From Terebella lapidaria (Eukaryota > Annelida > Polychaeta > Terebellida > Terebellidae), in NCBI GenBank assembly GCA_949152475.1, contig OX424566.1, forward strand, positions 27,814,423 through 27,878,422: a stretch of DNA of 64,000 nucleotides, read 5' to 3'. Below the pieces are notes generated by a model. The model had not been told where the DNA came from. It saw only the letters and a list, made by a program, of their open reading frames with translations, and made no database searches. Of the stretch, positions 1 through 61,462 are shown one piece after another; within the stretch, counting starts at the first letter, position 1, and each line of letters begins with the position of its first letter. The position numbers and the translations under genes are program-made.

Positions 1-2410
1 TCAACGACACTGCGCTTTGTGTTATAGCAGTTCCGCACCCTTTTCAACAGTTCGCCAGACTTTGGTCTTTGTTGGGCGTCCGAAGACCACGCTGCTTCTA
101 TGCAACTTCGGATAGCATGGGGCGTCCTGTCATTCTCACAGGGGCGCAAGTTGTTGTTCATTATAGCTCTCAGAATCTCTGATGCTTCCATCGTGTCATA
201 GTGCTCGGCATATGGGGCTTCGGTCATGAAAATTTCGTGGATGACGATAGCTACACTGTATACATCACTTTCAAATGTGGGCATATGCATGTACTCTGCT
301 TTCATAATTTCTGGTGCTGTCCAGTATTCACTTTTGGCATTATCTGCAATGCCTGGGTTTTCTGCCATCGGGTGAGTCAGAAACAGTGGGTTTTTCTTTG
401 AATGTATTTTCTGATATAGGGAACTGAATTCCCAATCAGCGATTTTGATCGTCCACTTCGTGTCTAGCATGCACTTCGTGGAACTCAGGTGTCCGTGAAT
501 TATATTTCGACTGTGTAAATAGGCAACGCCGTTGAGCAATTCAACAGCGAGGGAATACTGGATGTCCTTATTGAATGTTATCTTTTTGTTTTCGATGATA
601 TCATACAGTGAACCTCGGGCACAAAATTCATTCACAGCATAGATATTGTCTTCAATGGATGTTATTCCGTAAAACTTGAGAATGTTCGAATGGTCCAAAT
701 CCATGAACGTGAGAACCTTTCGTTTGGTTTCCGTTTTGATATCAAGACTTTCTTGTAAACGCAACACTCGAAGGCCAATTGTGATACCATTCCACTTGCC
801 TGGCCAATGGAGCACGTGTTCCATCATAGTAAACCCATCCTCCACGTGGGTGACATCAGTTAGTGACGTCAGAGAGGGCCAGTGAACGAAGCGACATTCT
901 TCATCGTCATCAACAGCAGTATGGTAGAAATTAATCTCTTCTATATGTACGAGCCATTCATTAAGGCTCAACTTCTTCAAGAATTTGACGTGCCTCACGA
1001 GATAGATGATGCCCAGTATCACCAGGATAGTTAAAATTATAGAGCCAATTAGAGACAAAACCGTCACAAGTAAAGTGTTATCCTGTTTGTTTTCTCTCTC
1101 TTTTTCGGCCCTCGCTATCTTCCACATGTTGTCACCATCACATGTTATTTTCTCGAGAACTGCCTTTCGCACAGTTCTAGCTAGATTAGTACTGATTGGC
1201 GTCATTGAAGCATCAATACAGATTTGAGCAGCATCTTCTGAACTGAGAAACCAGTCGATGTATCTAACTAACTCCAAGCTTACTTCACAGTCTTTCATGG
1301 ATGTAATTTGGACAATCATGTAGGTAAAACCTGCGATCGGATAAGAGCTTTTACTGTGAAAATCCGCCAGTGTCGCGGTCAATTCAGTGGCAGTTTCGAA
1401 GAACCGTGAAGCAACATCCATCAACTCTTGTACAGACTCCGTACCAGCGGAAACTATGGTTCCATATTCGTTCTGCAACTTTGCGTATGGAACTTCAGCG
1501 TTTCTGGCATCCGCGATTGACAAGTACCCTATACTATACTCAAACGACAATATGAGCCCAGACATTCCTCGGTTTTTGTATCCATAATGGTGAATAGCAT
1601 TTGATGGCCATGCGGTTTTCTTGCTGAAAACCCCGTATCTGCTTTTCCAACTGTCATCAAGACTCAAACCACTCGTGAATATACTCGTTGTACCGGACTT
1701 ATCCAAACGGGCGATGACTTTTATTGGTTCTCCAGTTAGATTCACCCATGGGTTGAGATTTGCTATCAGAGAATCGTTCCAGTGAGTTATGCTACCGTTG
1801 TATATACGAGCCAGTATGGGGATGGACAACACCAAATCATTTCCCGTCTTCTTCACTTCGGGCACGTTGTAACCAAGCACAACAGCACTGAAACGAATAA
1901 AAAGTTGAACCCTCACGTCACCTACACGTACATGTATAATAATTGCCAAGTTTAAAATATCAGTGCATATACAGTTTGTAAGTTATTAAACTAACTGGAT
2001 AGCATTGGAAAATTTAGAAAGTGTCAATAGCAGCAACAATTTCGTGGACTTTACCCTGCCATTGTTGGGAACATTCTGAGGTCAGGAAAATCCGTCTTCT
2101 GTTCCTGACTGAGAAGAGAGTCACTTCCCGCGTAATCCACGTCCGGCTCCTGTTGGGTTATTCTTCCCTTCCCCGTAGAGCTGCCCACAGATTCATACTT
2201 AATCTGGACGTCCTTGTGGACCTGGCGCTCCAGATTGTACGATAGGATCCATGATTTATACACGTCACTCGGGAAGCTTGCTCCAGCGCCGCTAACGACA
2301 ACCGTGTCGCCGGATGTCACGTGCATCACGCTGGCAACCCATGTGATTACCCAGGTTAAGGTAAGTATATCAGATGACCAAAACCTAACCAATCCGGGAG
2401 TGGCTTCCAT
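1..2410 (-). CDS. PstS-type phosphate-binding receptor with pseudokinase domain (receptor guanylyl cyclase-like), 3' part off the window
   Basis: Two exons (2410-2055 and 1887-1) join in frame across a 167-bp GT-AG intron in phase 2 and give about 747 residues before the window edge. Residues 1-34 form a signal peptide with a hydrophobic core at about 15-33. Residues 35 to about 385 match bacterial PstS along its whole length: GAGASFP (41-47), YESVGSSTG (72-80), DYAGSD (92-97), FPTMAGAVVLGYN (114-126) and RLDKSGTT (179-186). One membrane helix lies at about 391-416. The cytosolic part matches receptor guanylyl cyclase kinase-homology domains (NEFCARGSLYDIIEN, IIHGHLSSTKCMLD, YWTAPEIM). The catalytic motifs are degenerate: IGLR in place of VAIK, HGH in place of HRD, DWE in place of DFG. 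Three N-glycosylation sequons (N149, N156, N168) suit a secreted domain. An in-frame TGA lies six bases upstream of the chosen ATG. The cyclase domain is expected left of base 1 but not seen, so a receptor pseudokinase without cyclase remains possible. Phosphate sensing is inference. Confidence 0.93.
1888..2054 (-). other. Phase-2 intron inside the PstS-like domain
   Basis: The donor is GTAAAG after ATG-GCA-GG, and the acceptor is TTTCAG before T-GCT-GTT. The split codon is a glycine. The join restores the conserved PstS strand FPTMAG-AVVLGYN exactly. This shows that the bacterial-type domain is encoded by a normal spliced animal gene rather than by contaminating bacterial DNA. Confidence 0.92.
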
Positions 2411-4385: not shown

Positions 4386-5380
4386 AAGTTACCGGACCTA
4401 TGGCCTGACAACCTATAGGGCCTGTAAGTCACGTGTCGTCACGGTGTGATTCTGGTGACCAACAAGATACACCTTTTGTTCAATATGAGTAGAACTCCAA
4501 TTAGAACGCAAATTGCTCAGGTAACACAAAAGGGCTCTGTTTGTTTGTCACCAGAATCACACTGTGACTGCTCGTGACTTTCAGACCGTATTGGCACGGC
4601 GTTGCGTATGTCGTCCGTCCACATTTTTATCTCTAAACTTTACAGTCGAAACTTTCTGAAACTTCGCACAAAAATGCCTGAAAATATTTTAAAAAGGGGG
4701 GTAATTAGTTTCTTTATCTTCGCTTTTTTCAAAATAGCGGCCATTTTCGACCAATAACGGCCATTTTCTCAAATATTTTTGTTTCAGATTCCCCTCATAT
4801 ACCTCTGTGACGTATATAAGTTTCTTTGCCCTTGAATCACCGGTCAGCGTGTGGTGGCCATGTTCATTTTGTCGACGGGTCCCAAATAGGACTATCCCAT
4901 GTTAAATTCTCCTATTCTTCATAATTGGAAACATTATGCACAATATCTCATTCAATATTTAGATTAGAGATCAGAAATCAATTGTGCCGAAATGATATAT
5001 GCCGAATATTCTGATGATCTTGAATTTGACCTTCGATCTCATTTTCAAGGTCAGAGCACAAAATGGTGTATATTTCGCTTGATATCCACTTTACAGCTTG
5101 GGAATAAATTTTGCACATATAGCAAATGATATATGCTGAGTATCGTCATGGCCTTGAATTTGACCTTTGACCTCATTTTCAAGGTTAGAGCTCAAAATGA
5201 CTTATATCTCGCTTATCATCGACATTACAGCGTAGGAATTAATTTATCTCGCTTATTATCGACTTTACAGCTTGGGAATAAATTGTGGACATATAGGAAA
5301 TGATGTATGCCGAATATTTTGATGACCTTGAATTTGACCTAAGGTCAAATATGTGCAATTTTGTAAAATATGTTCACTTT
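4386..5380 (+). repeat. Truncated copy of the GGTTACCGGACC / AGGTCA element family, reverse orientation
   Basis: It begins with AAGTTACCGGACCTATGG and the GGCGTTGCG and GTCGTCCGTCCACA stretch found, reverse-complemented, at the right ends of the copies near 27.5, 34.3, 52.2 and 61.4 kb. It continues through the AATTTGACC / TTCAAGGTCA repeat region and then fades out. A perfect TGACCTTTGACCT lies at 5161-5173. No protein is encoded. The copy is interrupted by a MITE at 4417-4588. Confidence 0.75.
4417..4588. mobile_element. MITE, 172 bp, nested in an older element
   Basis: The arms are inverted: GTAAGTCACG...GGTGTGATTCTGGTGAC on the left, and GTCACCAGAATCACAC...CGTGACTTTCAG on the right. The flanking TAT is duplicated (4414-4416 and 4589-4591). 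Other copies of the host element read AACCTATTGGCA-like sequence without interruption (the inverse is seen near 27.53 kb), so an empty site is available for comparison. There is no coding capacity, so it would be non-autonomous. Confidence 0.75.
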
Positions 5381-25628: not shown

Positions 25629-26389
25629 ACATTGAAAGCGATAGTGACTTGATTTCAGACAGATTTTTTTCTTCTCGCTGACCCATCAGAAAATCAAATG
25701 CACTCCATGTGCGAACCAGCAATTCAAGGGCAAAGAAACACCATGGTAGCGTTATTCTGCACAATTGTACGTATAGGGCGTGTAAGTGAGATTTGAAACG
25801 TCTCGTTATTTTACGTGATTTGACCTTTCTGGTGACATTTGATTTTCCCGCCAAATTTTTGGGCCAATTCGTAAAATTCTACATATTCGAACTCCTGCAA
25901 CTTACACGGAAATTATCGGAAAATTATCGCATATTCGTACTTTGATCATGACCCGTTCCTACGATCGCTAACGGTCTAAATATGCATTTTTCATAAGCAT
26001 TTCATTCCATTCAAAAGGGATGAAAATCGTATGTTTTTATGTTCCAAGGTCATGACCTTGACGGGAGAAAAAAGCTCATTCCCTTGAAACTACGTGATTA
26101 GTATGCAAACCGTCGGTGGCGTTTGTGACTATATATGATGTGGCATATGTTCTGTGCACTTTTTGTTATAACATCACAAAAATTAGGCCAAGGGCCAAAG
26201 ATAGGTTACCAGACAATGTTTAATATTTTAGATGGTAGCCAGGTCACTGGTTAAATTCAAGGTCAAGAGAATATTCAGCATATATATAATATTAAGCATA
26301 TATCATGTCCACAGTTGATTGCTAACCTGTAAATTCAATAATCAGAGAGATATTAGCAATTTTGTGCTGTGGCCGAAAATGAAGGCAAA

Positions 26390-27130
26390 AGTCAAATTCA
26401 AAGTCATCAAAATATTCAGTGTATATCATTTTCTATATGTCCACAATTGATTCCCAAGCCATACAGTCAATATAGGAGCAAGATATGAGCCAGTTTGTCC
26501 TTGGACCTTGAAAATGAGGTCAGAGGTCAAATTCAAGGTCACGAGAATATTCAGCATATATCGTATCCTATATGTCCACAATTGATTCCTAAGCTGTAAA
26601 ATCGATCATAAGTGAGATATTAGCCATTTTGTCCTGTGACCTTGAAAATGAGGTCAAAGGTCAAATTCAAGGTCATGACAATAATTTGCATATATCATTT
26701 CCTATATGTTCATAACTGATTCGTAAGCTGTAAAGTCGATAACAAGCGAGATGTTAGCCATTTTGTCCAATGACCTTGAAAATGGGTCAAAGGTCAAATT
26801 TAAGGTCATCAGAATATTCAGCATATATCATTTCTTATATGTCCACAATTGATTCCTAAGCTGTAGAGTCGATAATAAGCGACATATAAGCCATTTTGTC
26901 CTATGACCTTGAAAATGGGGTCAAAGGTCAAATTCAAGGTCATCAGAATATTCAGCATATATCATTTCCTATATGTCCACAATTGAGTCCTAAGCTGTAA
27001 AGTCGATAATAAGCGAGATATAAGCCATTTTGTGCTCTGACCTTGAAACTGAGGTCAGAGGTCAAATTCAAGGTCATGAGAATATTCAGTATATATCATT
27101 TCCTATATGTCCACAATTGATTCCTAGTCA
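26390..27130 (+). repeat. Tandem array of ~134-bp units rich in nuclear-receptor half-sites
   Basis: The AAGGTC landmark recurs at 26535, 26669, 26802, 26936 and 27070, giving a 133-134 bp period. Each unit carries TGACCTTGAAA, then AGGTCA(A/G)AGGTCA or a one-base variant, then AAATTCAAGGTCA. It continues with ATATTCAGCATATATC, CCTATATGTCCACAATTGATTCC, AAGTCGATAATAAGCGAGATAT and AGCCATTTTGTCC. A perfect DR1 is at 26651-26663. The flanking TCAAGGTCA (26667-26675) and inverted TGACCTTGA (26637-26645) fit ERR/NR5A extended half-sites. Confidence 0.88.
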
Positions 27131-32908: not shown

Positions 32909-34292
32909 AAAAATTAGCCAAGCGACTAAGGAAAGTTACCGAACAATATTTCAAATAGTAGCCGTTTGTCGCATAATTTCGACAATAAGGCCATTGGTCC
33001 ATTCGAGGTCACGAGAATATTCAGCATATCATTTAGAGTATGTCCACAACTTATTCCTAATCTGTAAAGTAGATAATATTTGAAATATTAGCCATTTTGT
33101 GATCTGACCTTGAAAAGAAAGTCAAAAGTCAAGTTCAAGGTCATGAGAATCTTTAGCATATATCATTTCCAATATGTTCACTATGGATTTCTAAGCTGTA
33201 GAGTCGATAATAAGCCAGATATTAGCCACTTTGTTCTCTCATATTGAAAATGAGATCAGAGGTCAAACTCAAGGTCACCAGAATATTCAGAATATATCAT
33301 TTCCTATATGTTCACAATGGATTCCTAAGCTGTAAAATTGATAATGAGCGATATATTAGCCATTTGTGCTCTGACCTTGAAATTAAGGTCAAATGTCGGG
33401 TTCATGAGAATATCCAGCATACATCATTTCCTATATGTCCACAATTGATTCACAGGCTATAATAAATTATTATTATTATTGGTAATAAGCGAGATATGAG
33501 CCATTTTGTTCAAGGTCACGAGAATATTCAGCTTATATCTTTTCCTATGTGTTCGCAATTGATTCCTGATCTCTAATCTCAATGCTAAGTGAGATATTAG
33601 CAATAATGTGTCCTATTATAAAGCATAGGAGAATTGGTTTCATATAAACTTTATTTATTTTACAACAATTGATGAACAAGCATCAGCTTATATCAACATC
33701 TCTTGTTGGCTCGGATCTTGGCGTAAGGGTGCTCATTAGTGTGGGAGGAAACCACAGAACCTGGTGAAAATCCACTTGCCCGGTTTAGAGACCACATACC
33801 ACCTCACATACTGCCGAGGCCGGGGATCTAACCCGCGCCTAAACCGACTGCATTGGTGAGAAGTCAGCCCACATACGAACTGAGCTAACCAGGCAACCAA
33901 TATAGGAGAATTTACCATGGGAAAGTCCCATTCGGGCCAAGTTTGGGCCTAAATGACCCACTTTGAGCGATTCAAGGGCAACGAATCTTATACACGTCAC
34001 AGGGGTACCTATGAGGAGTCTTATGCACCAATTAGAAAAAAGTTACTGAACAAATTTTGAGACAACAACCGTCAAAGTCCAAAATTGTCTGTTTTTCGTC
34101 AAAAATGGCCGCCAATTTTAAAAAACTTCGAAAATCAAAAACCTAAAAAATATCTCCCTCTTTAAATATTCTTAGGCATCTTTGTACAAAATTTCAGAAA
34201 GTTTCAGTCGTAATCTTTAAAAATAAAAATGTGCACGGATGACGGACGCAACGCCACTGCAATAGGTTATCGGGCCAAAGGTCCGGTAACCT
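32909..34292 (+). mobile_element. GGTTACC-ended element with AGGTCA units (block B copy), split by a SINE
   Basis: It begins AAAATTAGCCAAGCG..AAAGTTACCGAACA and ends GGTCCGGTAACCT. Inside are about four decayed units (CAAGGTCA at 33005-33600, with TGACCTTGAAA and AGGTCAAACTCAAGGTCA variants). The right arm matches the block A copy. Without the inserted SINE it is about 1.1 kb. Confidence 0.78.
33636..33901 (-). mobile_element. tRNA-derived SINE with 11-bp target duplication
   Basis: Read on the minus strand it starts GGTTGCCTGGTTAGCTCAG then TTCGT (pol III A box). It has a B-box-like GGGTTAGATCCCC some 40 bases on, a central GGTTTCCTCCCACA stretch, and a tail ending AAATAAATAAAGTTTATATG. ATAGGAGAATT is duplicated at 33625-33635 and 33902-33912. 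The block A element shows the intact empty site (CATAGGAGAATTTAACATGG near 27.18 kb). Such elements depend on LINE machinery supplied elsewhere. Confidence 0.92.
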
Positions 34293-40835: not shown

Positions 40836-43800
40836 CTAATCATGTTTCTTGACAATGTAAGAAAAACTTCGAGGTATTTTGAAGTTCACATTTTTGACTT
40901 TAACAAAAAAATTGGACAACATGTTGCCTGGAGCCAGTTTCATCGGATTCATCTTTGGAGTTTTCGGTTTTAGTTTCCATCGTGAAGCTTTCTTAGGCTT
41001 GTTTTGACATATCTGGGCAGCAGAGTGATGCGTACAAGACAGGTCAATCATTGAATTCAGTTTTCGTCTCTTATGGGGCTTCCCTGTGTTTAGCTCTTGT
41101 CCACATGTTCCATCGCATGTTTTTCGTTTGTGGTTCTCCAATGTATGCTTTCTATTCTCCTTGTTCATTTCCTCAACATTTAAAGTTGAATCCACACAAA
41201 TGTTAGAAGGGTGGACAATACGGTTCCGTGCGTATCGCCCAGAGTCAGACTGGAGCAAACGTTGTTCAGATCCAGAATTCCCTTTCATATCCGTGTGGTT
41301 ATTTAGCAATGTCATTTCGGAAACGTCCTTTGCAATTATATCATCCTGAGTTGTCCTGTTGCTTCTTTGTCTCTCCTGGCAACATTGCTCTCCAGTCGGA
41401 CGATTGATCACATTCAGGGAGGTGAGAAGGACTTCACTTACACACTGCCTGAAAAATAGTCGAGTCATAAAAAGAAGGATATTTAAGTGAAAGTAATATT
41501 AAGACGTCACTATTTATTGACCAATGTCATGTTAACCATTCATACGAACTGGATGTTACCAGTATTCACGGACATAATTCTGGCTCATCATTTTAGACAC
41601 ATAATTCGGCCTAAATAACTTGTGCTGTTTGTTCCTCTATATTCAATAAGGATTGAAAAGGTGCAAGACGAATTAATTGGGGGGGTGTTTTCAATAATCG
41701 AGAGGTGTTATGGGACAGTACAAGATACTTTGACCCATAATTTCTACATTTTTCACGTATAGGTCTAACTCATCACCCATGTGTCCCGTGAACCCACCTG
41801 ATGACTCGACCGATGACCTCAGTAGATGTGAAATCCGGACTGGTGTCTCCGTCTCCATCTGTTCGACACTCTGGAATGGGGGGCATTCTGGATCTGTTCC
41901 TTGATGTGTCCGTGTGAGGTGGACACCTGGGCGTACTTCTTGAATCACTTTTTGTCAAGGGATTTGACTTGTGTGGTATATCTGGGTGGCAACTATTGCC
42001 TCTCCTAAGAGTTCTCACATTACCCATGCTTGGGTTGTTCATGGGCTTTGGTTCGATTCCAAAATGGTTTCCTACGTTGCCGTTTGTGTTACTTCTCCCA
42101 ATTTCGTTTACACGGAAATAATTCCATGTTGTGGGGACGACTACATCCCTCCTCTCCGATCCGATAGTGGTCGATGGAATATTGAATGACTTATGATGAT
42201 CCCGAAATCGTCTCGCGTCCGGAGTGGAAAAAGTGGACGAAGCACTGACATCTAAATGTTCACCTGGAATTGAACCATTTCTTGCTTAAACATTTGGCCT
42301 AATGCTTAGCATATAAGCAACCTAATATAACCAATCATGGAGATTAATGCTTGGAATTTACTCAACTATGTAGCCTACCCTTTCCTGGTGACTGTCTGGC
42401 AATGGCCTTCACATGTTTTCTGGAACCCACGGAACCGTCCAGCCAATAATACCAACCGTCTACTCTCTACAGGGGCGAAAAAACAATCACGTAAAAACTA
42501 CTATCAGAACTGATCATACCTTTTCCGTGAAAACGTTAAAATGAAGTGTTAAAATGAAGGATAAATGATGCGGGCAAAAGTTAGGCACCTTTTGCTTTGA
42601 GAGTACGTGACGTAATCCAAAAGACATCGATCCCAAGATTTCATGTTCTTCACTGAAATGTACAATGCATCACGGTCAGTGTATAGTATTCATCGAAATA
42701 ATTTGAGGTACAATAGTGGTGTGCGCCCTGGAAATATACTGTTTGAAACATGGATATGACTCTTATAATTGATACTCTATACTGCTAGACGCGCACCTGT
42801 GATCTTCTGGTTGATGCCACAATGACAGGTGTAACCGCTTCTTCGTATCTCCTGGTAAAAGCTCACTGTGAGAAGTAAGCATAATATTACTTATTCCGCA
42901 CCTCACTCGTGTTATATATTAGGAACATTTATTATTCCACTTATTCTGTTGTGCTGTTTCTGTACACATAAGTACACTAAGTGAAACTAATCTGTGGGAA
43001 ATCATGTTTTCATAAATTTGCAAGATGGTCGAAAATAACACTTTCCATGCAGTGCTTACAATGAAAATTTCTCGTTGAAGCGCGGATGATTGGTACCGGG
43101 TGCAACCTCCGTGAAACACGTGGTCGTGTTTGTGACGTCAGGGATCAGCGACACCTGGTGAGTGAATATGTTTCACACAATTTTTCATTCTGGGCATTAT
43201 GTAAACTTCACTTTAACGTACGTAGCTATGTTAAGGTCAGAGGTTAGTCAACCGTGTTCCTTTTAACGGATTTGTGCGGTTAAAGACACGAGCCTTACCT
43301 TAATATAGGCGTTGGATTTCAAGTCCACAAGAGGAGCAAGATGTCGGCACTCAATAACTGCAACATACGTTTGTGTAAACTCTTTTATAGTCTGAGTTTG
43401 TAAAAAAAAAATATCTCGGCTGTAGTAGCCTTAGCTATGGCGATTGATATAACTTACAGATAATGTGATAATGGGATGCTTCTGCCTGTACAATTAGGCC
43501 GATATATTACTGTACGCGCGAAATTATTTGTGTTTCGGGCTTACCGTGAACTGTCATCATTCCTGAGTTGATGTATAGAGATAGACGCAGGATGGCTGTA
43601 ATAATATGAATATTGGGGATCACGTATAGTCTAAAGAAATATTTGAACAATATGAATGTTTTTCGAGTATTTGCAAATCATTTCATTACCCGCAATGGAT
43701 CAAGTTTTCGCGTAGAAAGACTTTTTTTTACTGTATATTAAATGGTTCAGGTATTTCTGGTATACTCGTACACTAACCTTTGCCTTGAATCACTGATTCT

Positions 43801-44135: not shown

Positions 44136-46080
44136 TCTTCAGACAGACCATATACTAATTGATCTTTTGCATAATATCCATGTAACAGGTTGCTACAAAA
44201 TCAGTCGCGACTGGTGATGTCCCGTTTCCATTCGATGGTATTGATTGTCCGGATGTACTTGTGTCGACTTTATCTTGTCAACGACCCTGGCAAGTATACA
44301 TTAGGTATAAGTGGGTCTGCTTTTAGTTTATTCCTATGGGTCCGACATGGCTTATCGTAAACCTGAAAGTAAACAATAAAATATTGTAACACGTGACTGT
44401 GTAAACTCATTTATGACCCTCTATAGCATTCGTTTGTCTCTTTTTGTCGCAAACAAGACAATTGAGACAATATGTGAACAAACATGTATATATACGTACG
44501 CAATATTCGCAAATACATAGACCTACATTGTGGTAGGTAGATGTATTCAGTTAAAGCAATCCGCACTCGCTCAGTTATGTCCGATGAAAATATATTTTGT
44601 TAGATATTAACACACCTTTCCTCCTTCACGTATGTCACCATATTGAGAGTGAACTATCTTACCTGATAACGACAATAATCCGGTACTTGAACAGGAGTTT
44701 GTCGGTAGAACACACCCTTATATGACTATATTGTATATATAGCGTTCTTATCGTAAATGTTGCCCTCTCCAGGTGAGCACTTGAGGACTCCTGTCAGTGG
44801 TATTACTTCGAGGAATAAATTACTGTGATTTTATATACTGTGGTCACACATAGTAAACAGATACACCCACATACTTGTATATACTCTGTATGTCATTGGC
44901 TAGGAGTATATGATACCATTGATACGGGCAATTTACACGGCTGTAATTAAAGGGCTATTTATTCATTGTACCGCGCGTGTTTGATGCGCTCGAACGGTAA
45001 CGGTTGCTTAATCAGCCATTGTTCCGTGTTGAAACACTTCTGATTTCATACTTTATGATATAATTGTTCATTTGAGAAGTGCTAGTCAGGCATGATGGTG
45101 ATGTAAGTGAACAAAATATCAGTGAAATGAAACAAAGCATGAAAGTGAATGAGCATCTGTTTTCAACTGTGTTCATTGCACAATAAAGGAAAAGGGAATT
45201 TGCGCACCTGTTTCGCGTTTGTGTTCGTTTAATAGACAATGGAGGTGCATTTCAATGTATGAAAGTGAATAGTACTACATATTTATGCGTGTCAATTTGA
45301 ATTCGTATATATATATATATTCGAACAATACATCATGAACTAACGGTTCCTAAATACGCATACATTACACGTGATGCATGTCAGATGTACCTGTATTCTG
45401 AAAATCCGTTTCGCATAAACTTTGTATCTTGTCTGAATTTAATAATACCGTATATATTTTATTTTTTATTTTAGAAATATAAATATATTTCGTTGGTTAT
45501 AAAATCCCCAACACGCGGCCTTGAATGACAATGAGTAGGCCCAATTTATTAAAGCTACGTTCACAAACAAGTGTGAGTGCTTTGCGATTCTTTCGCGGAC
45601 AGCTTTTGTTGGCATTTAAACAAAATCCACATATTTATCGTGAATAAATTTAGGGACATTCAACAACAAAAGCACGAGATAGCGCCCTTGGTACATTGGA
45701 GCTCCACCCCGCCAGGAGGGCGGAGAAGAACACCATTCAGTCAAACTATTCAGTTTAGCTTAGAAACGAAGTAACCAATGGGCTGAGCTCGCACGGACTG
45801 AGTGAGAGAACAAAAAGCGGGGGTCTTTCCAGCCAGTCGATCTGATTTTTATGAACAATTTTGGTCTCTATTTGCAGTGCATCCTAGATATATGGTTTCC
45901 TGATTTTCATCAAAACGCCGTCATAGGACCAGCGGGTGGTTACATTGAGTTTATTCAAACGGAAAACTTCACGTATTTTTGTTTATCCGTGTCTTTTGTT
46001 CGAAGCAACAATACTGACACCACCGTTTTTGATCAAACGTTTTCCCGCCAAATTCCCAACCAAAACAGATGTCATACGAT
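44136..46080. other. Upstream region of the four-exon gene, no further gene seen
   Basis: A plus-strand frame at 45851-46093 runs up to the start of the tandem duplication but has no recognisable family. An alternating AT tract lies at about 45307-45321. No clear promoter motif for the minus-strand gene is visible. Confidence 0.4.
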
Positions 46081-47284
46081 ACGTCGTAAATAAAATATAA
46101 TAACGTAATCCCTGTGTTATTTGTCTGGGACACCTCCAAAAGACACATTTATATCATTGGGCCAGCCTAGGGTGGCACTGTTCATTTCTAGAACTGAGTA
46201 TTGAGGTCTCTTGTCCATTGAGCTGTTATAAATGTCATAACGGTCTAGGTGAGAATTAGCCTATCATGATGCTTGATCAATGCACATTAAAAAAAAAACA
46301 GATGAACAACTAGATGTCCGAACCGACGTTGACACGGAGAAAGTGCCAAATAAAAATTCACAATATATATCCATCGAACTATGATAAAAAAGCTCCCTTG
46401 TATGAGAGGTGTCGTATATATTCTGGGTTATCTTAGAGCTACAACCTGGCGGCAAAAATATCAATATAAACTTTTAGTCTTGATCACTTTTCTGAATTAT
46501 TCCCTATACAACTGATAGGGTGAAGTATGCCAAGTAATCAAAATAATTCAGCGCTATGGACTTTAAGATACCTTGAAAGTAGTATTCTCATGATGGCCAG
46601 TGGCTATGTTCATAATTTGACCGTCCTCGAAGGTGATTTTTGTTTTGTTTTCTCGGCTGAGAGATTAAATTATTTTCACTTTTTATAGTTCATTTTATTC
46701 TGTAGTCTTGCTGTGTACAATATTCAAGCAGGTGAAGATGATCCCTACAGTAAACATAAAATAACATTGTTTTAGAATGTAGATCTAGATCTATCCGGTA
46801 AATTATGTTTCAAATCCACGATTGATGGGTCTCCTGTCTTGTCCAGGTATGCTATGGACCATAACTTGATCATTCATATTCAATAGGCCGTGGGAAGACT
46901 AGGTTCATGAAGTACCCTAAAATTTACCGACGTCACCAGACACTAGACTAATTAAAAATTGGACAGTGGGTTCAGTTTTAATCGCTCCACAGTCTATATA
47001 CCTGTTATTGATCTCATGTCTTTGTCTCCTGTAATCAATATGAGCTTGGGATGCCAGACAGAATTATGGCATATTTTCAGTGACCGAGTTATATTAAGGG
47101 GCAATCTAATCTATCTGGGCCAACTTTCTGCGTTCGTGCAATTTAAATTGCAGATGAATCAAATGCGAAAAGGGATTCTACCAGTGCATATTTCTTTTTG
47201 TTGTTGTTTTTTGTTGTTAAATATATCATGCTTTCTGGGGAAGTAACTTTCAAATATTAAAAGACTTATAGGTATGCTTGTAGT

Positions 47285-47290
47285 TTTATT
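47285..47290 (-). terminator. PolyA signal of MGSC gene, copy 1
   Basis: AATAAA on the minus strand, 30 bases past the stop codon. It is conserved in copy 2. Confidence 0.75.
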
Positions 47291-47319
47291 GAATTCTGAA
47301 CTTCGTCAATCACGAACAT

Positions 47320-48092
47320 CTAACCACTGACAGCCCTTGCTGACCAGGCTGTCACGTGATATGTCCTAGCGTCTGTAGCACGCAGACTTCCGGTCATCTC
47401 AATCCCGGAAACACGCGACTCACTATACAGCGTCAAGAGATATCGAGCATTCTCCGTCACAAAGTATCCGCTGAAGAGTAGCGATGCTTTTCCTGCTGAA
47501 CAAATGTTGAATGTCCCATGATAGTAGCTCTTCTGACCCAGAAAACAGGAGTCGTTCAAAACTTTAATATATTGCGCTCCAAGTCGGCGTTTCTTTAGGC
47601 ACAAAATCATTCGTCTTACACACGGTTTCGAGTTATCCTTTTGATCTGTGTTCATTGGAGCGAGGGTGACGAAAATTTGACGTGGAAAGAGGATGGTTTC
47701 GTCAATCACCTAGAAAAGAACAGCAATATTCATGTATATATTTTGACATATCTTTGAACAACGATAGTGAACATGCGGCTAGACCTCATGCATCATAGAA
47801 GTTCATCAAATCGTAGCAACTCATCAACCTAACTATCGCTATTGATTTTTTTTTAAATCAACCTGAAAAGAAAAAAAATACAAACCTTGCATGTGTAATG
47901 GTGTCGAGTGTCTCCAGGAGCGCTCACGCTGTAGCACGTGTCGGTTGTACTCCCTGCTGAGGCCTGGAAACCTAGATTGGTATATGACAACGTGCTTGCA
48001 CTTGTGATTTCAGTATATGTTCCATCCTTGTTTCTCTCCGAGATTTGCTGTTTCTTGTTTATATTATTCTGACGAGAGATACAACTCCCCAT
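47320..48092 (-). CDS. MGSC-family protein, copy 1 (198 residues, probably N-myristoylated)
   Basis: Exon 1 (48092-47886) codes for 69 residues and exon 2 (47709-47320) for 129. They join in phase 0 with donor GTTTGT and acceptor TTCTAG. The start MGSCISRQ fits an N-myristoylation signal (Gly2, Ser6) with Cys4 available for palmitoylation, so membrane anchoring on the cytosolic face is likely (inference from motif). Residues 9-69 are polar, with YTEI and YTNL that could be phosphotyrosine sites. Exon 2 is a compact, Cys- and beta-rich-looking segment (IFVTLAP, RRMILCLKKR, YYHGTFNICSAGKASLLFSG, RYLLTLYSE). No signal peptide or membrane helix is present. The family is not recognised. FRS2-like adaptors share only the MGSC start. 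The TATA box and polyA signal place the gene within about 0.9 kb. Confidence 0.82.
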
Positions 48093-49493: not shown

Positions 49494-50397
49494 GAAGAAA
49501 AAATTAGCCCAAGAGCTAAGATAGGTTACCGAACAATTTTGGTTTTGAGCATTGCGGGTGATAATGACCTCCAGATTTACCAATCAAGGTCATCTTTGTG
49601 AACATCAATGTCGCCACTATGTATGCTTCATATAACTTTATATATGTTCATAACACAAACATATCATCCCTATCAACAAGTATTTTGTCTGTAGGCCAAT
49701 TTACACATTTCAGATCGACTTTACAGCTTGGGAATAAATTGTGGACGTAGAGGAAATGATGTAAGCCCAATATTTTGATAACCTTGAATTTGACCTTTCA
49801 ACTTATTTTCAGAGCACAAAGCACATAATGGTTAATATCTCGTTTATTATCGACTTTACAGATTAGGAATCAATTGTGAACATATAGGAAATGATATATT
49901 CTGAATATTGTTATGGCCTAATTAAATTTGACATTTGACCTCATTTTCAATATCAGAGCACAAATGGCTAATTTCTCGCTCATTATCGACTTTACAGCTT
50001 AGGAATCAATCGTACACAAATAGGAAATGAAATGTGCTGAGTATTCGTATACCTTGAACTTGACCTTTGACCTCATTTTCAATGTCTGAGTACAGAATAT
50101 TTAATGTCTCACTTATTATCAATTTCACAGCTTGAAAACCAATTGTAAAACCAATTGTGAACTTATAGGAAATGATATATGGTGAATATTGTGATGACCT
50201 CATTTTCAAGATCAGAGCACAAAATGGCTAATATATCGCTTATCATCGACTATACAGCTTAGGAATCCATTGTGAACATACAGAAAATGATGTACCCTGA
50301 AGATTTTTTTTTCAGGGTCACGGGACACAAGGGTTAATATCTAAAATATAAAACATACTGTCCGGTAACCTTTCTTAGCCTTTAGGCTAATTTCTTC
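49494..50397. mobile_element. TIR element L, copy 1
   Basis: The ends are inverted: GAAGAAAAAATTAGCC then CAAGAGCTAAGATAGGTTACCGAACA on the left, and the inverse of GAAGAAATTAGCC then TAAAGGCTAAGAAAGGTTACCGGACA on the right. Each terminus holds its own TTAGCC..GGCTAA hairpin. The interior (49710-50340) is a decayed array of the ~134-bp AGGTCA unit in reverse orientation, including a perfect TGACCTTTGACCT at 50061-50073. No protein is encoded. Confidence 0.82.
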
Positions 50398-50400
50398 CTC

Positions 50401-52189
50401 AGGTTACCGGACCTATGGTCCGTCCGTCTGTCCGTCCAAATTCTTATCTTTAAAGTTTGCGGATCAATCTTTCTGAAAAAATTGGAAAAGATACCTCAAA
50501 ATAATTCGAAAGGGAGATATTTTTCAGTTTTTTTATTTTTAAATTTTTCTCAAAATAGCGGCCGTTCTCGTAAAAAAAAATGCTCACTTTCAATATTTTT
50601 TGGCCATTTTCTCAAATTCTGAGATTTCGGTTTGAAAAGATTCCTCTTATATACCTTTGTGAGGAGTATAAGTTTTGGTGCCCTTGAATCGCCGGTCCCC
50701 ATGTGGCTGCCATTTTGATTTTTGCCCCCAAATCGCATTACTATCCGTTTCTGGACATTTCTAGGAGGAAAAAAAGTTTTCACCCTTTGAAATTTTTTTT
50801 GGACTTTTTTCCTTCATCATGCGAGTTGCCACCAATGTACCCATAGAACCCCTGAAGAAAGAGCTTTGATATTGGCACTTACAAATAGGAAGTCATATTT
50901 GGTGATTTGTGTGGTGACTTTGAAATTGACCTTCGATGACCTTGAAAGGTCAAAACAGTCATATTTGGGTGAAAAATGGTCAAACTTCCTTTTACGGATG
51001 AATGCTTGTATATAGAGTTTAAGTTTGCATTTTGAGCATATAGGAAGTCATATATGGAACAACTAATGATGACTTTAGGCTTGACCTCGGATGACCTTGA
51101 GAGTGCCAAATGTTTGACGTGAAATGTGTGAATTAGTCTCCAATGCTTAAACCATCGTACATCGGGTTGTACATACAGGTTAGGATTGTGTATAAGCTTA
51201 TAAGGGGTCATAATTATATATGACACATCTTTACTGACCTTGAACTTGACCTTAGACAACCTTAGAGGCTAAATCTTTTGTGCTCTGGCCTTGAAAATAT
51301 CGTCAAATGTCAAGTTCAAGGTCATCAAAATATTCGGCATACATCATTTCCTATATGTCCACAATTGACTTCCAAACTATAAAGTCGATAATAAGAGAGA
51401 TATATTCCATTTTTTGCTCCGACCTAGAAAATAAAGTCAAGTTCAAGGACATGGAAAATTCAGCATAATCATTTCCTATATGTGCACGATTGATTCCTAA
51501 GCTGTAAAATCGATAATAAGCGAGACATTAGCCATTTTATGCTTTGACCTTGAAAATGAGACCAAAGGTCAAGCTCAAGATCATGAGAAAATTAAGCATT
51601 ATCATTTCCTATATGTGCACAATTGATTCCTAAGCTGTAAAGTCGGTGATAAACGAGATTTTAGCCATTTTGTGCTCCGAAAATTAGGTCAGACAAATAT
51701 TCGGCATATAGTATTCCCTATATACCCACAACCGATTCCTAATCTCTAATCTCAATAATCAGTGAGATATTAGCAGTAATGTCTAACATTATAAAGCACA
51801 GGAAAATTTGACATGGGAAAATCCCATTTGAGACCAGTAAAAAAAAATCGAAATGGCCGCCACACGCAGACCGTTGATTCAAGGGTAACATAGGTGTATG
51901 AGGAGACTCTTTTGAAACAAACCTCTCAAAACTGATCAGACAATTTTTTGAGAAAATGGCCGCCAAAATCCAAAATTGGCCAATTCGGAAAAAAATGCGA
52001 AAGTCGAATTACTAAAAAGTGCTTCCCTCTTGAAGTATTTTTAAGCATTTTTGTGAGAAATTTCAGAAAGATTCGATTGTAAATTTTACAGATAAAAATG
52101 TAGACAGACGACGCTGACGCCGACGATGCTGACAGACGATGGACGCAACGCCACGATAATAGGCTATCGGACCAAAGGTCCGGTTACCT
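50401..52189. mobile_element. TIR element R, copy 1
   Basis: AGGTTACCGGACCTATGG at the left and CCAAAGGTCCGGTTACCT at the right are inverted. Homology between the arms extends inward (ATCTTTAAAGTTTGCGG.TCAATCTTTCTGAAA against AATCTTTCTGAAATTT, and the AAAATGGC / GCCATTTTCTCAAA stretches). The middle carries AGGTCA-type units, partly in each orientation. The open frame at 50879-51259 is read-through of these units. It lies 3 bp from element L. Confidence 0.82.
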
Positions 52190-55629: not shown

Positions 55630-56871
55630 CTAAAATAAAAGATTGCGCTTGCTGATACGTCGTAAATAAAATATAATAACGTAATCCCTGTGTTATTTGT
55701 CTGGGACACCTCCAAAAGACACATTTATATCATTGGGCCAGCCTAGGGTGGCACTGTTCATTTCTAGAACTGAGTATTGAGGTCACTTGTCCATTGAGCT
55801 GTTATAAATGTCATAACGGTCTAGATGAGAATTAGCCTATCATGATGCTTGATCAATGCACATTAAAAAAAAACATATGAACAACTAGATGTCCGAACCG
55901 ACGTTGACACGGAGAAAGTGCCAAATAAAAATTCACAATATATATCCATCGAACTATGATAAAAAAAGCTCCCTTGTATGAGAGGTGTCGTATATATTCT
56001 GGGTTATCTTAGAGCTACAACCTGGCGGCAAAAATATCAATATAAACTTTTAGTCTTGATCACAGAAATAATACTTTTCTGAATTATTCCCTATACAACT
56101 GATAGGGTGAAGTATGCCAAGTAATCAAAATAATTCAGCGCTATGGACTTTAAGATACCTTGAAAGTAGTATTCTCATGATGGCCAGTGGCTATGTTCAT
56201 AATTTGACCGTCCTCGAAGGTGATTTTTGTTTTGTTTTCTCGGCTGAGAGATTAAAATATTTTCACTTTTTATAGTTCATTTTATTCTGTAGTCATGCTG
56301 TGTACAATATTCAAGCAGGTGAAGATGATCCCTACAGTAAACATAAAATAACATTGTTTTAGAATGTAGATCTAGATCTATCCGGTAAATTATGTTTCAA
56401 ATCCACGATTGATGGATCTCCTGTCTTGTCCAGGTATGCTATGGACCATAACTTGATCATTCATATTCATTAGGCCGTGGAAAGACTAGGTTCATGAAGT
56501 ACCCTAAAATTCACCGACGTCACCAGACACTAGACTAATTAAAAATTGGACAGTGGGTTCAGTTTTAATCGCTCCACAGTCTATATACCTGTTATTGATC
56601 TCATGTCTTTGTCTCCTGTAATCAATATGAGCTTGGGATGCCAGACAGAATTATGGCATGTTTTCAGTGACCGAGTTATATTAAGGGGCAATCTAATCTA
56701 TCTAGGCCAACTTTCTGCGTTCGTGCAATTTAAATTGCAGATGAATCAAATGCGAAAAGGGATTATACCAGTGCATATTTCTTTTTGTTGTTGTTTTTTG
56801 TTGTTAAATATATCATGCTTTCTGGGGAAGTAACTTTCAAATATTAAAAGACTTATAGGTATGCTTGTAGT

Positions 56872-56877
56872 TTTATT
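56872..56877 (-). terminator. PolyA signal of MGSC gene, copy 2
   Basis: AATAAA on the minus strand, 30 bases past the stop codon, as in copy 1. Confidence 0.75.
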
Positions 56878-56906
56878 GAATTCTGAACTTCGTCAATCAC
56901 GAACAT

Positions 56907-57677
56907 CTAACCACTGACAGCCCTTGCTGACCAGGCTGTCACGTGATATGTCCTAGCGTCTGTAGCACGAAGACTTCCGGTCATCTCAATGCCGGAAACA
57001 CGCGACTCACTATACAGCGTCAAGAGATATCGAGCATTTTCCGTCACAAAGTATCCGCTGAAGAGTAGCGATGCTTTTCCTGCTGAACAAATGTTGAATG
57101 TCCCATGATAGTAGCTCTTCTGACCCAGAAAACAGGAGTCGTTCAAAACTTTAATATATTGCGCTCCAAGTCGGCGTTTCTTTAGGCACAAAATCATTCG
57201 TCTTACACACGGTTTCGAGGTATCCTTTTGATCTGTGTTCATTGGCGCGAGGGTGACGAAAATTTGACGTGGAAAGAGGATGGTTTCGTCAATCACCTAG
57301 AAAAGAACAGCAATATTCATGTACATATTTTGACATATCTTTGAACAACGATAGTGAACATGCGGCTAGACCTCATGCATCATAGAAGTTCATCAAATCG
57401 TAACAACTCATCAACCTAACTATCGCTATTGATTTTTTTTAAATCAACCTGAAAAGAAAAATTTACAAACCTTGCATGTGTAATGGTGTCGATTTTCTCC
57501 AGGAGCGCTCACGCTGTAGCACGTGTCGGTTGCACTCCCTGCTGAGGCCTGGAAACCTAGATTGGTATATGACAACGTGCTTGCACTTGTAATGTCAGTA
57601 TATGTTCCATCCTTGTTTCTCTCCGAGATTTGCTGTTTCTTGTTTATATTATTCTGACGAGAGATACAACTCCCCAT
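56907..57677 (-). CDS. MGSC-family protein, copy 2 (198 residues)
   Basis: It has the same structure as copy 1: exon 1 at 57677-57471, exon 2 at 57296-56907, phase 0, with intact start, splice sites and stop. Relative to copy 1 I count four amino-acid changes in exon 1 (E to D in YTEI, T to A in AGSTTD, and D to E plus T to N in PGDTR). Exon 2 has one (N to T in QKDNSK) beside about four silent changes. Both copies therefore look functional. The anchor sequence MGSCISRQ is unchanged. Confidence 0.82.
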
Positions 57678-58818: not shown

Positions 58819-59729
58819 GAAGAAAAAATTAGCCCAAGGGCTAAGATAGGTTACCGAACAATTTTGGTTTTGAGCATTGCAGGTGACATATGACCTCCAG
58901 ATTTACCAATCAAGGTCATTTTTGTGGACATCAATGTCGCCATTATGTATGCTTCATATAACTTTATATATGTTCATAATACAAACATATCAGCCCTATC
59001 AACAAGTATTTTGTCTGTAGGCCAATTTACACATTTTAGGTCGACTTTACAGCTTGGGAATAAATTGTGGACGTAGAGGAAATGATGTAAGCCCAATATT
59101 TTGATAACCTTGAATTTGACCTTTCAACTTATTTTGCTATTACACAAAGCACAGAATGGTTAATATCTCGTTTATTATCGACTTTACAGATTAGGAATCA
59201 ATTGTGAACATATAGGAAATGGTATATTCTCAATACTGTTATGGCCTAAAATTTGACCTTTGACCTCATTTTCAATATCAGAGCACAAATGGCTAATTTC
59301 TCGCTCATTATCGACTTTGCTGCTTAGGAATCAATTGTCCACAAATAGGAAATGAAATATGCTGAGTATTCGTATACCTTGAACTTGACCTTTGACGTCA
59401 TTTTCAAGGTCTGAGTACAGAATATTTAATGTCTCACTTCTGATCAATTTCACAGCTTGAAAACCAATCGTGAACATATAGGAAATGATATATGGTGAAT
59501 ATTGTGATGACCTTGAATTTGAGTTCTGACCTCATTTTCAAGATCAGAGCACCAAATGGCTAATATATCGCTTATTATCGACTATACAGCTTAGGAATCA
59601 ATTGTGAACATACAGGAAATGATATATCCTGAAGATTTTTTTTCAAGGTCATGGGACACAAGGGTTAATATCTAAAATATAAAACATACTGTCCGGTAAC
59701 CTTCCTTAGCCTTTAGGCTAATTTCTTCC
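58819..59729. mobile_element. TIR element L, copy 2
   Basis: Same ends and interior as 49494-50397. The left hairpin is perfect here (TTAGCCCAAGGGCTAA). A perfect TGACCTTTGACCT lies at 59254-59266. Confidence 0.82.
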
Positions 59730-59731
59730 TT

Positions 59732-61462
59732 AGGTTACCGGCCTTTGGTCCGTCTGTCTGTCCGTCCACATTCTTATCTTTAAAGTTTGCGGTTCAATCT
59801 TTCTGAAAAAATGGGAAAAGATACCTCGAAAATAATTCGAAAGGGAGATATTTTCCAGTTTTTTTTATTTTTAAATTTTTCACAAAATAGCGGCCGTTTT
59901 CGTCAAAAAATGCTCACTTTCAATATTTTTCTTATATACCTTTGTGACGTGTATGAGTTTTGTTGCCCTTGAATCGCCGGTCTCCATGTGGCTGCCATTT
60001 TGATTTTTTTGATTTTTGCCCCCAAATCGCATTACCGCATTCGCATTTCGGGACATTTCTAGGAGGAAAAATAGTTTTCACCTTTGAAATTTTTTTTGGA
60101 CTTTTTTCCTTCATCATGCGAGTTGCCACCAGTGTACTCATAGAACCCCTGAAGAAAGAGCTTCGATATTGACACTTTCAAATAGGAAGTTATATTTGGT
60201 GATTTGTGTGTGTGAATTTGACCTTCGATGACCTTGAAAGTCATTTTTGGGTGAAAAATGGTCAAATTTGCTTCTACAGATGAATGCTTGTATATAGAGT
60301 TTAAGTTTGCATTTTGGGCATATAGGGAGTCATATATGGAACAACTAATGATGACATTAGGCTTGACCTCGGATGACCTTGAAAGTGCCAAATGTCTGAC
60401 GTGAAATGTGTGAATTAGCCTCCGATGCTCAAACCATTGTACATCGGGTTGTACATACAGGTTAGGATTGTGTATACGCTTATAAGGAGTCATAATTATA
60501 TATGATACATCTTTGACTGACCTTGAACTTGACCTTAGACGACCTTGGAGGCTAAATCTTTTGTGATGTGGCCTTAAAAATATCGTCAAATATCAAGTTC
60601 AAGGTCATCGAAATATTCGGCATACATCATTTCCTATATGTCCACAATTGACTTCCAATTTATAAAGTCGATAATAAGAGAGAAATAATCCATTTTTTGC
60701 TCTGACCTAGAGAATAAAGTCAAGTTCAAGGTCATGGAAAATTCAGCATTATCATTCCCTATATGTGCACGATTGATTCCTAAGCTGTAAAATCGATAAT
60801 GAGCGAGATATTAGCCATTTTATGCTTTGACCTTGAAAATGAGACCAAAGGTCAAGTTCAAGATCATGAGAAAATTCAGCATCATCATTTCCTATATGTG
60901 CACAATTGATTCCTAAGCTAAAGTCGGTGATAAACGAGATATTAGCCATTTTGTGCTCCGAAAGACAAATATTCGGCATATAGTATTTTCTATATACCCA
61001 CAACCGATTCCTAATCTCTAATCTCAATATTAAGTGAGATATTAGCAGTAATGTGTAACATTATAAAGCACTGGAAAATTTGACATGGGAAAATCCCATT
61101 TGAGACCAGTCAGAAAAAATCGGAATGGCCGCCACACGCAGACCGTCGATTCAAGGGTAACATAGGTGTATGAGGAGACTCTTTTGAAACAAACCTCTCA
61201 AAACTGATCAGACATTTTTTTTGAGAAAATGGCCGCCAAAATCCAAAATTGGCCAATTCGGAAAAAAATGCGAAAGTCGAATTACTAAAAAGTGCTTTCC
61301 TCTTGAAGTATTTTTAAGCATTTTTGTGAGAAATTTCAGAAAGATTCGATTGTAAATTTTACAGATAAAAATGTAGACAGACGACGCTGACGCCGACGAT
61401 GCTGACAGACGATGGACGCAACGCCACGATAATAGGCTATCGGACCAAAGGTCCGGTTACCT
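59732..61462. mobile_element. TIR element R, copy 2
   Basis: Colinear with 50401-52189, with small deletions. The open frame at 60059-60589 is longer than its counterpart only because of indels and is not a shared protein. Confidence 0.82.

Follow-up and report, generated by a model that had tools for sequence, protein, structure and literature searches.

Receptor guanylyl cyclases of the GC-A/NPR1 type are single-pass membrane proteins in which an ectodomain, usually though not by strict definition of the ANF_receptor type (PF01094), is followed by a kinase homology domain that lacks the catalytic aspartate, a linker, and a cyclase domain. Here we describe a gene of the annelid Terebella lapidaria that shares this layout; its 5' part occupies positions 1 to 2410, on the minus strand, of a 64-kb stretch of genomic DNA (hereafter, the window; C13:27814423-27878422 of a 761.6-Mb, 438-contig assembly). 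It differs from the GC-A/NPR1-type receptors in that a PF12849 domain takes the place of their PF01094 ectodomain and its cyclase-like domain is dead. It shares a whole domain, the predicted fold, and the residues of the phosphate site with PstS, the substrate-binding protein of the Pst phosphate ABC transporter of bacteria; in the window gene, however, this domain is joined to a membrane helix and to signaling domains of eukaryotic type.

PF12849 has been found in one fungal glutamate-type receptor, SPPG_06488, according to PMC3251606. A fungal class C (glutamate-type) G-protein-coupled receptor with this PBP_like_2 domain, P0122, likewise carries a PstS-type ectodomain on a eukaryotic receptor; its output is a seven-helix domain, whereas that of the window gene comprises kinase homology and cyclase-like domains. 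PstS-like phosphate-binding proteins have also been reported from eukaryotes as free proteins (DING proteins, human phosphate-binding protein), whose genes are said to be lacking from genomic databases (PMC2817009), in contrast to the chromosomal, spliced receptor gene described here. In vertebrates, PiT2, FGFR1c, and CaSR have been proposed as sensors of extracellular phosphate, and the molecular mechanisms are termed poorly understood in a review (PMC8199323). These candidates resemble the window receptor in their suggested ligand and differ from it in folds and outputs. To our knowledge, none of the three is built on a PstS domain. The oyster kinome contains 23 receptor cyclases, and the words "PBP," "phosphate-binding," and "periplasmic" do not occur in the main text of that study (PMC4883820). 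Searches of the open PMC literature with narrow terms, a scope outside which subscription papers and preprints lie, returned no paper on a PstS receptor cyclase and no described family of this architecture with a non-phosphate ligand, a case that the original prediction for this locus had itself raised.

Gene structure and receptor architecture

The original prediction, made from the window alone, had placed a PstS-type domain, one membrane helix, and a receptor-cyclase-type pseudokinase in a single spliced animal gene, and this architecture is certain. The coding part of exon 1 (2055 to 2410, minus strand) starts with the ATG at 2410 and encodes an N-terminal hydrophobic segment and the beginning of the PstS domain (residues 1 to 118 and two bases of codon 119). 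A phase-2 GT-AG intron (1888 to 2054, minus strand) follows at codon Gly119, and exon 2 covers the remainder (1 to 1887, minus strand; residues 119 to 747), its frame going on to the left of base 1. The spliced product inside the window has 747 residues, in which TIGR00975 (PstS) matches residues 40 to 362 (E value of 3.1e-60), PF12849 matches with an E value of 4.5e-26, and the kinase model PF07714 with one of 2.6e-31; no PF01094 ectodomain was found by the Pfam search. The TIGR00975 score of 203.9 bits is 1.1 bits short of the equivalog cut-off of 205. The PstS-type domain (residues 38 to 365; 1149 to 2299, minus strand) is split by the intron. It is followed by a single membrane segment (residues 393 to 418; 990 to 1067, minus strand), assigned by eye and lying within a long predicted helix (residues 373 to 426), and by the kinase homology domain (residues 425 to 735; 39 to 971, minus strand), which is defined by profile, PDB-sequence, and model comparison. 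As for the signal peptide that had been claimed, a hydrophobic N-terminal stretch is present, and its resemblance to a signal sequence was judged by eye.

Positions 1 to 38 (minus strand) hold the start of a linker to a degenerate cyclase-like domain; the latter falls beyond the window edge (L085:3049-4000). In the genome, exon 2 extends a further 952 bases (318 codons), to C13:27813471, so that its open frame of 660 codons in the window becomes one of 978, far above chance. The frame is continuous and the recovered stretch contains no N; a contig break between the PstS and kinase parts, which had been considered beforehand, is thus absent. The full spliced product as read has 1065 residues, the last of which may be intron read-through.

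Three protein searches, which scored 7,999, 7,999, and 7,136 candidates only, returned relatives from molluscs, annelids, and a nemertean. Full-length or near-full-length proteins came from the annelids Paralvinella and Owenia, the nemertean Lineus, and many molluscs (Haliotis, Patella, Ylistrum, Argopecten, Argonauta, Liolophura, Gigantopelta, Ruditapes, Littorina, Babylonia, Mercenaria, Solemya, Nucella, Sinanodonta, Dreissena, and others). Among the candidates scored, no named match from other animals combined PstS and kinase parts. Some relatives are catalogued as generic predicted models, such as "atrial natriuretic peptide receptor 2-like," as the original prediction had anticipated.

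The exon junction 2055/1887 is conserved at the equivalent codon in relatives and in paralogs of the same genome. Among 45 relatives, 27 have Gly with preceding sequence at the site of Gly119, 7 start downstream of it, and 11 have Arg or Ser; in these 11, similarity is lost immediately before the site, a pattern in the protein letters that would be expected from read-through of a phase-2 acceptor AG. A GG/GT donor and an AG acceptor are present at the equivalent codon in three same-genome paralogs (C15, C1 at 76 Mb, and C14), and in a fourth (C1 at 41.5 Mb) only the acceptor side was seen. The window gene has all features of this PstS receptor-cyclase family, namely, PF12849, the membrane segment, the kinase homology domain, the cyclase-like domain, and the phase-2 Gly119 intron.

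The phosphate site of the ectodomain

A PDB sequence search with the outer half of the protein retrieved PstS chains, the best at 5e-37 (Burkholderia, then E. coli). The phosphate site of E. coli PstS, which we take to include R135, D137, S139, G140, and T141, is kept at eight of nine positions, and Ser replaces Thr10 at the ninth. By alignment with the E. coli protein, the central motif is R179-L-D181-K-S183-G184-T185 (1689 to 1709, minus strand), and D97 (2120 to 2122, minus strand) is the equivalent of D56. Most readable relatives, like the window product, show no change at these positions; two aberrant letters, E at S38 and K at D56, both trace to P0060, which seems to begin with intron read-through. 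Separately, Glu replaces the Asp of D56 in Argonauta, Paralvinella P0055, and P0011. Phosphate binding by the window ectodomain is predicted and is likely.

Kinase homology and cyclase-like domains

With the inner half of the protein, the PDB sequence search retrieved kinases, and GC-A was among the best 60 matches. In the kinase homology domain, HRDL has become HGHL, the VAIK lysine is Arg, and the DFG motif reads DWE, with its aspartate kept; the same three states (Arg at the VAIK lysine, no HRD aspartate, DFG aspartate retained) are found in 19 of 19 rows of the group to which the window protein belongs (see below). The original prediction had suggested a search to the left of base 1 for a linker and a class III cyclase domain: a linker and a cyclase-like domain do follow the kinase homology domain there, and the catalytic residues are gone. 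At six columns where intact members have D, E, D, C, N, and R, presumably the metal, guanine, and transition-state residues, the window protein has M, D, G, V, D, and Q, and PF00211 (cyclase) does not match its product even at an E value of ≤1. The linker and cyclase-like part can still be aligned with relative P0002 (172 bits, 34% identity). Judged by its residues, the window protein is a pseudokinase plus pseudocyclase, a degenerate relative of receptor guanylyl cyclases. The predicted model of the window protein starts at residue 120, and its best 50 structural matches are all kinases. For the relative P0001, the predicted model has the intracellular domain of GC-A as its top Foldseek match. 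The match lists are dominated by PstS and kinases and thus say little about the cyclase-like domain beyond this GC-A match.

The family tree comprises 46 rows, the window protein and 45 relatives, and is unrooted; P0025, P0026, P0028, P0031, P0034, and P0119 were left out as short, of other architecture, or near-duplicate. At least one cyclase column is readable in 42 of the 46 rows, 34 of them degenerate (including two incomplete rows, P0057 with 2 columns and P0118 with 3 of 6) and 8 intact (5 of which are readable at all six). Three changes between the two states are needed on this tree. The window protein falls in a 19-row group (support 100/99) of annelid, mollusc, and taxon-unassigned rows, the other 18 of which are all degenerate, and this placement forecast a degenerate cyclase before the DNA to the left of base 1 was read. 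A second group of 17 mollusc and taxon-unassigned rows (99/96) contains 15 degenerate rows and 2 without a cyclase domain.

The groups differ in which inner domain is conserved. Among the intact members (8 rows, 28 pairs), mean pairwise identity is highest in the cyclase (64%) and lowest in the kinase homology domain (31%), with PstS at 44%. In the group of the window protein (17 rows, 136 pairs that are not independent; the window protein itself and P0118 excluded), it is 48% in the kinase homology domain, 21% in the cyclase, and again 44% in PstS. The cyclase is less conserved than the kinase homology domain in 135 of these 136 pairs and in 0 of the 28 intact pairs. In the second degenerate group, the kinase homology domain stands at 33% and the cyclase at 25%, and the cyclase is the lower in 89 of 91 pairs. 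In the group of the window protein, then, it is the kinase homology domain rather than the cyclase that is conserved in the inner half; we take these receptors to be pseudo-enzymes that likely still function, probably through the kinase homology domain.

PstS receptors elsewhere in the genome

A profile search of the T. lapidaria genome found PF12849 at four places, and a fifth PstS receptor was reached via a cyclase match; residues were compared, and a tree was built, from 27 relatives and these five loci. All six cyclase residues are retained at C15, C1 (76 Mb), and C1 (41.5 Mb), and C14 retains three of the three that are readable. The respective exons score 198, 223, 203, and 116 bits against PF00211, the C14 exon being incomplete. 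C15 and C1 (76 Mb) have an intact phosphate site; that of C14, which pairs with Paralvinella P0055 at 100/100, is altered, F11 being Tyr and D56 being Glu. In C1 (41.5 Mb), the readable part, which lacks the first exon, has Cys at S139 and Glu at T141. Given these differences in phosphate site and cyclase, one animal has PstS receptors in several sensor/enzyme states, and cGMP output is possible for the paralogs with retained cyclase residues. The C1 (41.5 Mb) paralog (L121:1618-4482, minus strand), with cyclase residues kept and phosphate site changed, is in effect the reverse of the window gene. A conventional ANF-receptor-type receptor cyclase is located at C16:26.03 Mb. At least 172 exon-level PF00211 matches were counted in the genome (150 of 195 candidates scored), several of them clustered on C2, C3, C14, and C15.

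Proposed role of the window receptor

We favor the reading that the window protein is a phosphate-binding regulatory receptor whose effects run through the kinase homology domain, possibly in partnership with an active sister receptor; this is a reasoned guess, with a probability of about 0.5. From the observed architecture, junction, retained phosphate-site residues, lost kinase and cyclase residues, same-genome paralogs with cyclase residues, and conservation pattern, we infer a course of phosphate binding, membrane relay, and output. On the extracellular side, the PstS clamshell would bind inorganic phosphate or a closely related analogue, and its closing would be relayed via the membrane helix to the kinase homology domain. 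The receptor would make no cGMP, both the kinase and the cyclase parts having lost catalytic residues; instead, the kinase homology domain would serve as an output surface that binds a partner protein or pairs with an active-looking PstS receptor cyclase, and pairing with such a paralog would tune the phosphate response of the latter.

Several points weigh against this proposal. Pairing is suggested solely by the co-occurrence of the two kinds of receptor in this genome and in Paralvinella (P0001, P0055). The second degenerate group lost its cyclase without raised kinase homology identity, so the shift in conservation is not general, and some inner branches of the trees, which are unrooted, are weak. 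The fast-evolving cyclase-like domain may be decaying, and the P0001 model has mixed confidence in this domain (block means of about 40 to 86; whole-model pTM of 0.43). PstS folds could also bind another oxyanion. A different division of labor, in which the window protein, like sGC-alpha, would be the half that supplies metal aspartates to a partner, was rejected on the ground that its group does not conserve the two metal aspartates.

Change of ligand is the alternative that survives best, though we consider it unlikely: the PstS fold would have been kept and a chemosensory receptor for an organophosphate, phosphonate, arsenate, or phosphorylated peptide would have arisen. The multiple paralogs per species (three in Gigantopelta, five loci here) resemble a chemosensory set, and both the changed S139 and T141 of C1 (41.5 Mb) and the Glu residues at D56 in Argonauta, P0055, and P0011 fit such a change, which is opposed by the unaltered site in the window product and most readable rows. 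More doubtful still is a membrane-tethered phosphate scavenger or transport helper, whose PstS domain would pass phosphate to a transporter while the inner domains served as a scaffold. The inner enzymes are indeed dead, and bacterial PstS presumably acts in this way, as the name of the TIGR00975 model implies; however, the kinase homology domain is the best-conserved inner part of the group and paralogs retain cyclase residues, which argues for signaling rather than scavenging.

The original prediction had suggested signaling through cGMP, and an active phosphate-gated receptor guanylyl cyclase, in which phosphate raises the cGMP made by the window protein, would suit the architecture, the retained phosphate site, and the same-genome paralogs with cyclase residues. 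For the window gene this proposal fails, as exon 2 ends in a cyclase-like domain without catalytic residues; with no PF00211 match and 18 other degenerate rows in its group as well, cyclase activity of its own is very unlikely, and an active cyclase in this gene was rejected in view of the C-terminal sequence to the left of base 1. Finally, a bacterial PstS brought in by misassembly or contamination, or a pseudogene, might be suspected from the bacterial name of the domain and from the DING proteins, eukaryotic PstS-like proteins said to lack known genes, but its probability is negligible given a spliced gene inside a 40.6-Mb contig, a conserved intron, a 978-codon open frame, relatives in annelids, molluscs, and a nemertean, and ectodomains separated from sampled prokaryotes at 100/100.

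If the window protein is a phosphate-binding receptor, the retained site on a receptor makes it a directly testable phosphate sensor in a field, animal phosphate sensing, that is poorly understood. With sister receptors of the same genome retaining their cyclase residues, the system may represent a mode of phosphate sensing not described before. Its group offers a natural experiment, a receptor cyclase minus the enzyme with sensor and kinase homology domain retained; the enzyme loss apparently predates the annelid/mollusc split and bears on the function that a kinase homology domain has on its own. Such a sensor could matter for feeding, reproduction, or mineralization in marine molluscs and annelids.

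Origin of the ectodomain

In a scan of prokaryotes, the best 20 loci were all from Chloroflexota, with 33 to 40% identity to P0021, a range overlapped by the rows from non-animal eukaryotes (37 to 42%). An unrooted ectodomain tree of 42 rows, four of them long (P0035, P0055, P0071, and P0122), separates 18 prokaryote rows (16 of the best 80 loci, from 281 relatives, plus P0036 and P0071) from 24 animal, other-eukaryote, and unknown-host rows by a branch supported at 100/100; the ectodomains of the window family thus cluster with PstS ectodomains from other eukaryotes or from unknown hosts and stand separate from the prokaryotic ones in the sample. A recent bacteria-to-animal transfer is not favored, since all 24 rows share one side of this branch. 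Ten animal ectodomains group at 100/100; with support of 95/89 they are joined by the fungal seven-transmembrane receptor P0122, the two halves of P0025, and P0034. Several of the non-animal, non-bacterial rows are metagenome proteins of unknown host; in the 14 rows of this kind, the readable site positions match the window protein or E. coli, the exceptions being D56, which is Glu in P0122, and F11, which is Leu in P0067 and P0035.

The PstS-type ectodomain is joined to a phosphodiesterase domain in P0124 of the green alga Tetraselmis chui and to a class C seven-transmembrane receptor in P0122 of the fungus Calcarisporiella thermophila. Taken together, P0124, P0122, P0045, and P0037 carry PstS-type ectodomains on cyclic-nucleotide phosphodiesterase and class C seven-transmembrane receptors. 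On a 41-kb metagenome contig, P0034 combines a PstS-type domain with a class III cyclase and has no kinase homology domain; the residue pattern at its start is compatible with the shared Gly119 intron site.

Tentatively, and at slightly less than even odds, we suggest an old, unrecognized eukaryotic family of PstS-clamshell phosphate receptors with different cyclic-nucleotide and G-protein outputs. In annelids, molluscs, and a nemertean the output would be that of a receptor guanylyl cyclase; the metagenome protein would signal through a class III cyclase that lacks a kinase homology domain, the Tetraselmis protein through a phosphodiesterase, and the fungal one through a class C seven-transmembrane domain. 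An early lophotrochozoan split would then have produced enzymes and dead partners that jointly measure environmental phosphate.

Other features of the window

Pfam searches with 10 of the 61 other open reading frames of at least 85 codons in the window yielded no match at 0.01, and a tRNA scan of the window found none. Six exons joined by eye at 42379 to 43593 (minus strand) encode a C2 domain (PF00168, 2e-15) whose closest PDB sequence is RGS3 (1.8e-20); by eye, this RGS3-like gene may span about 44130 to 40860. A vault RNA is located at 45668 to 45794 (minus strand; RF00006, score 44.4 bits, gathering threshold 34) and independently points to an animal genome. Two pairs of open reading frames, at 46956 to 47709 and 56543 to 57296, about 9.6 kb apart, are nearly alike in their first 60 residues, which suggests a duplicated segment or a dispersed repeat. 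Seven tandem arrays (4990 to 5245, 26305 to 27126, 33002 to 33451, 49714 to 50133, 51305 to 51680, 59041 to 59627, and 60593 to 60958) share a similar unit of about 125 to 136 bases and are rich in AAGGTCA-like words.
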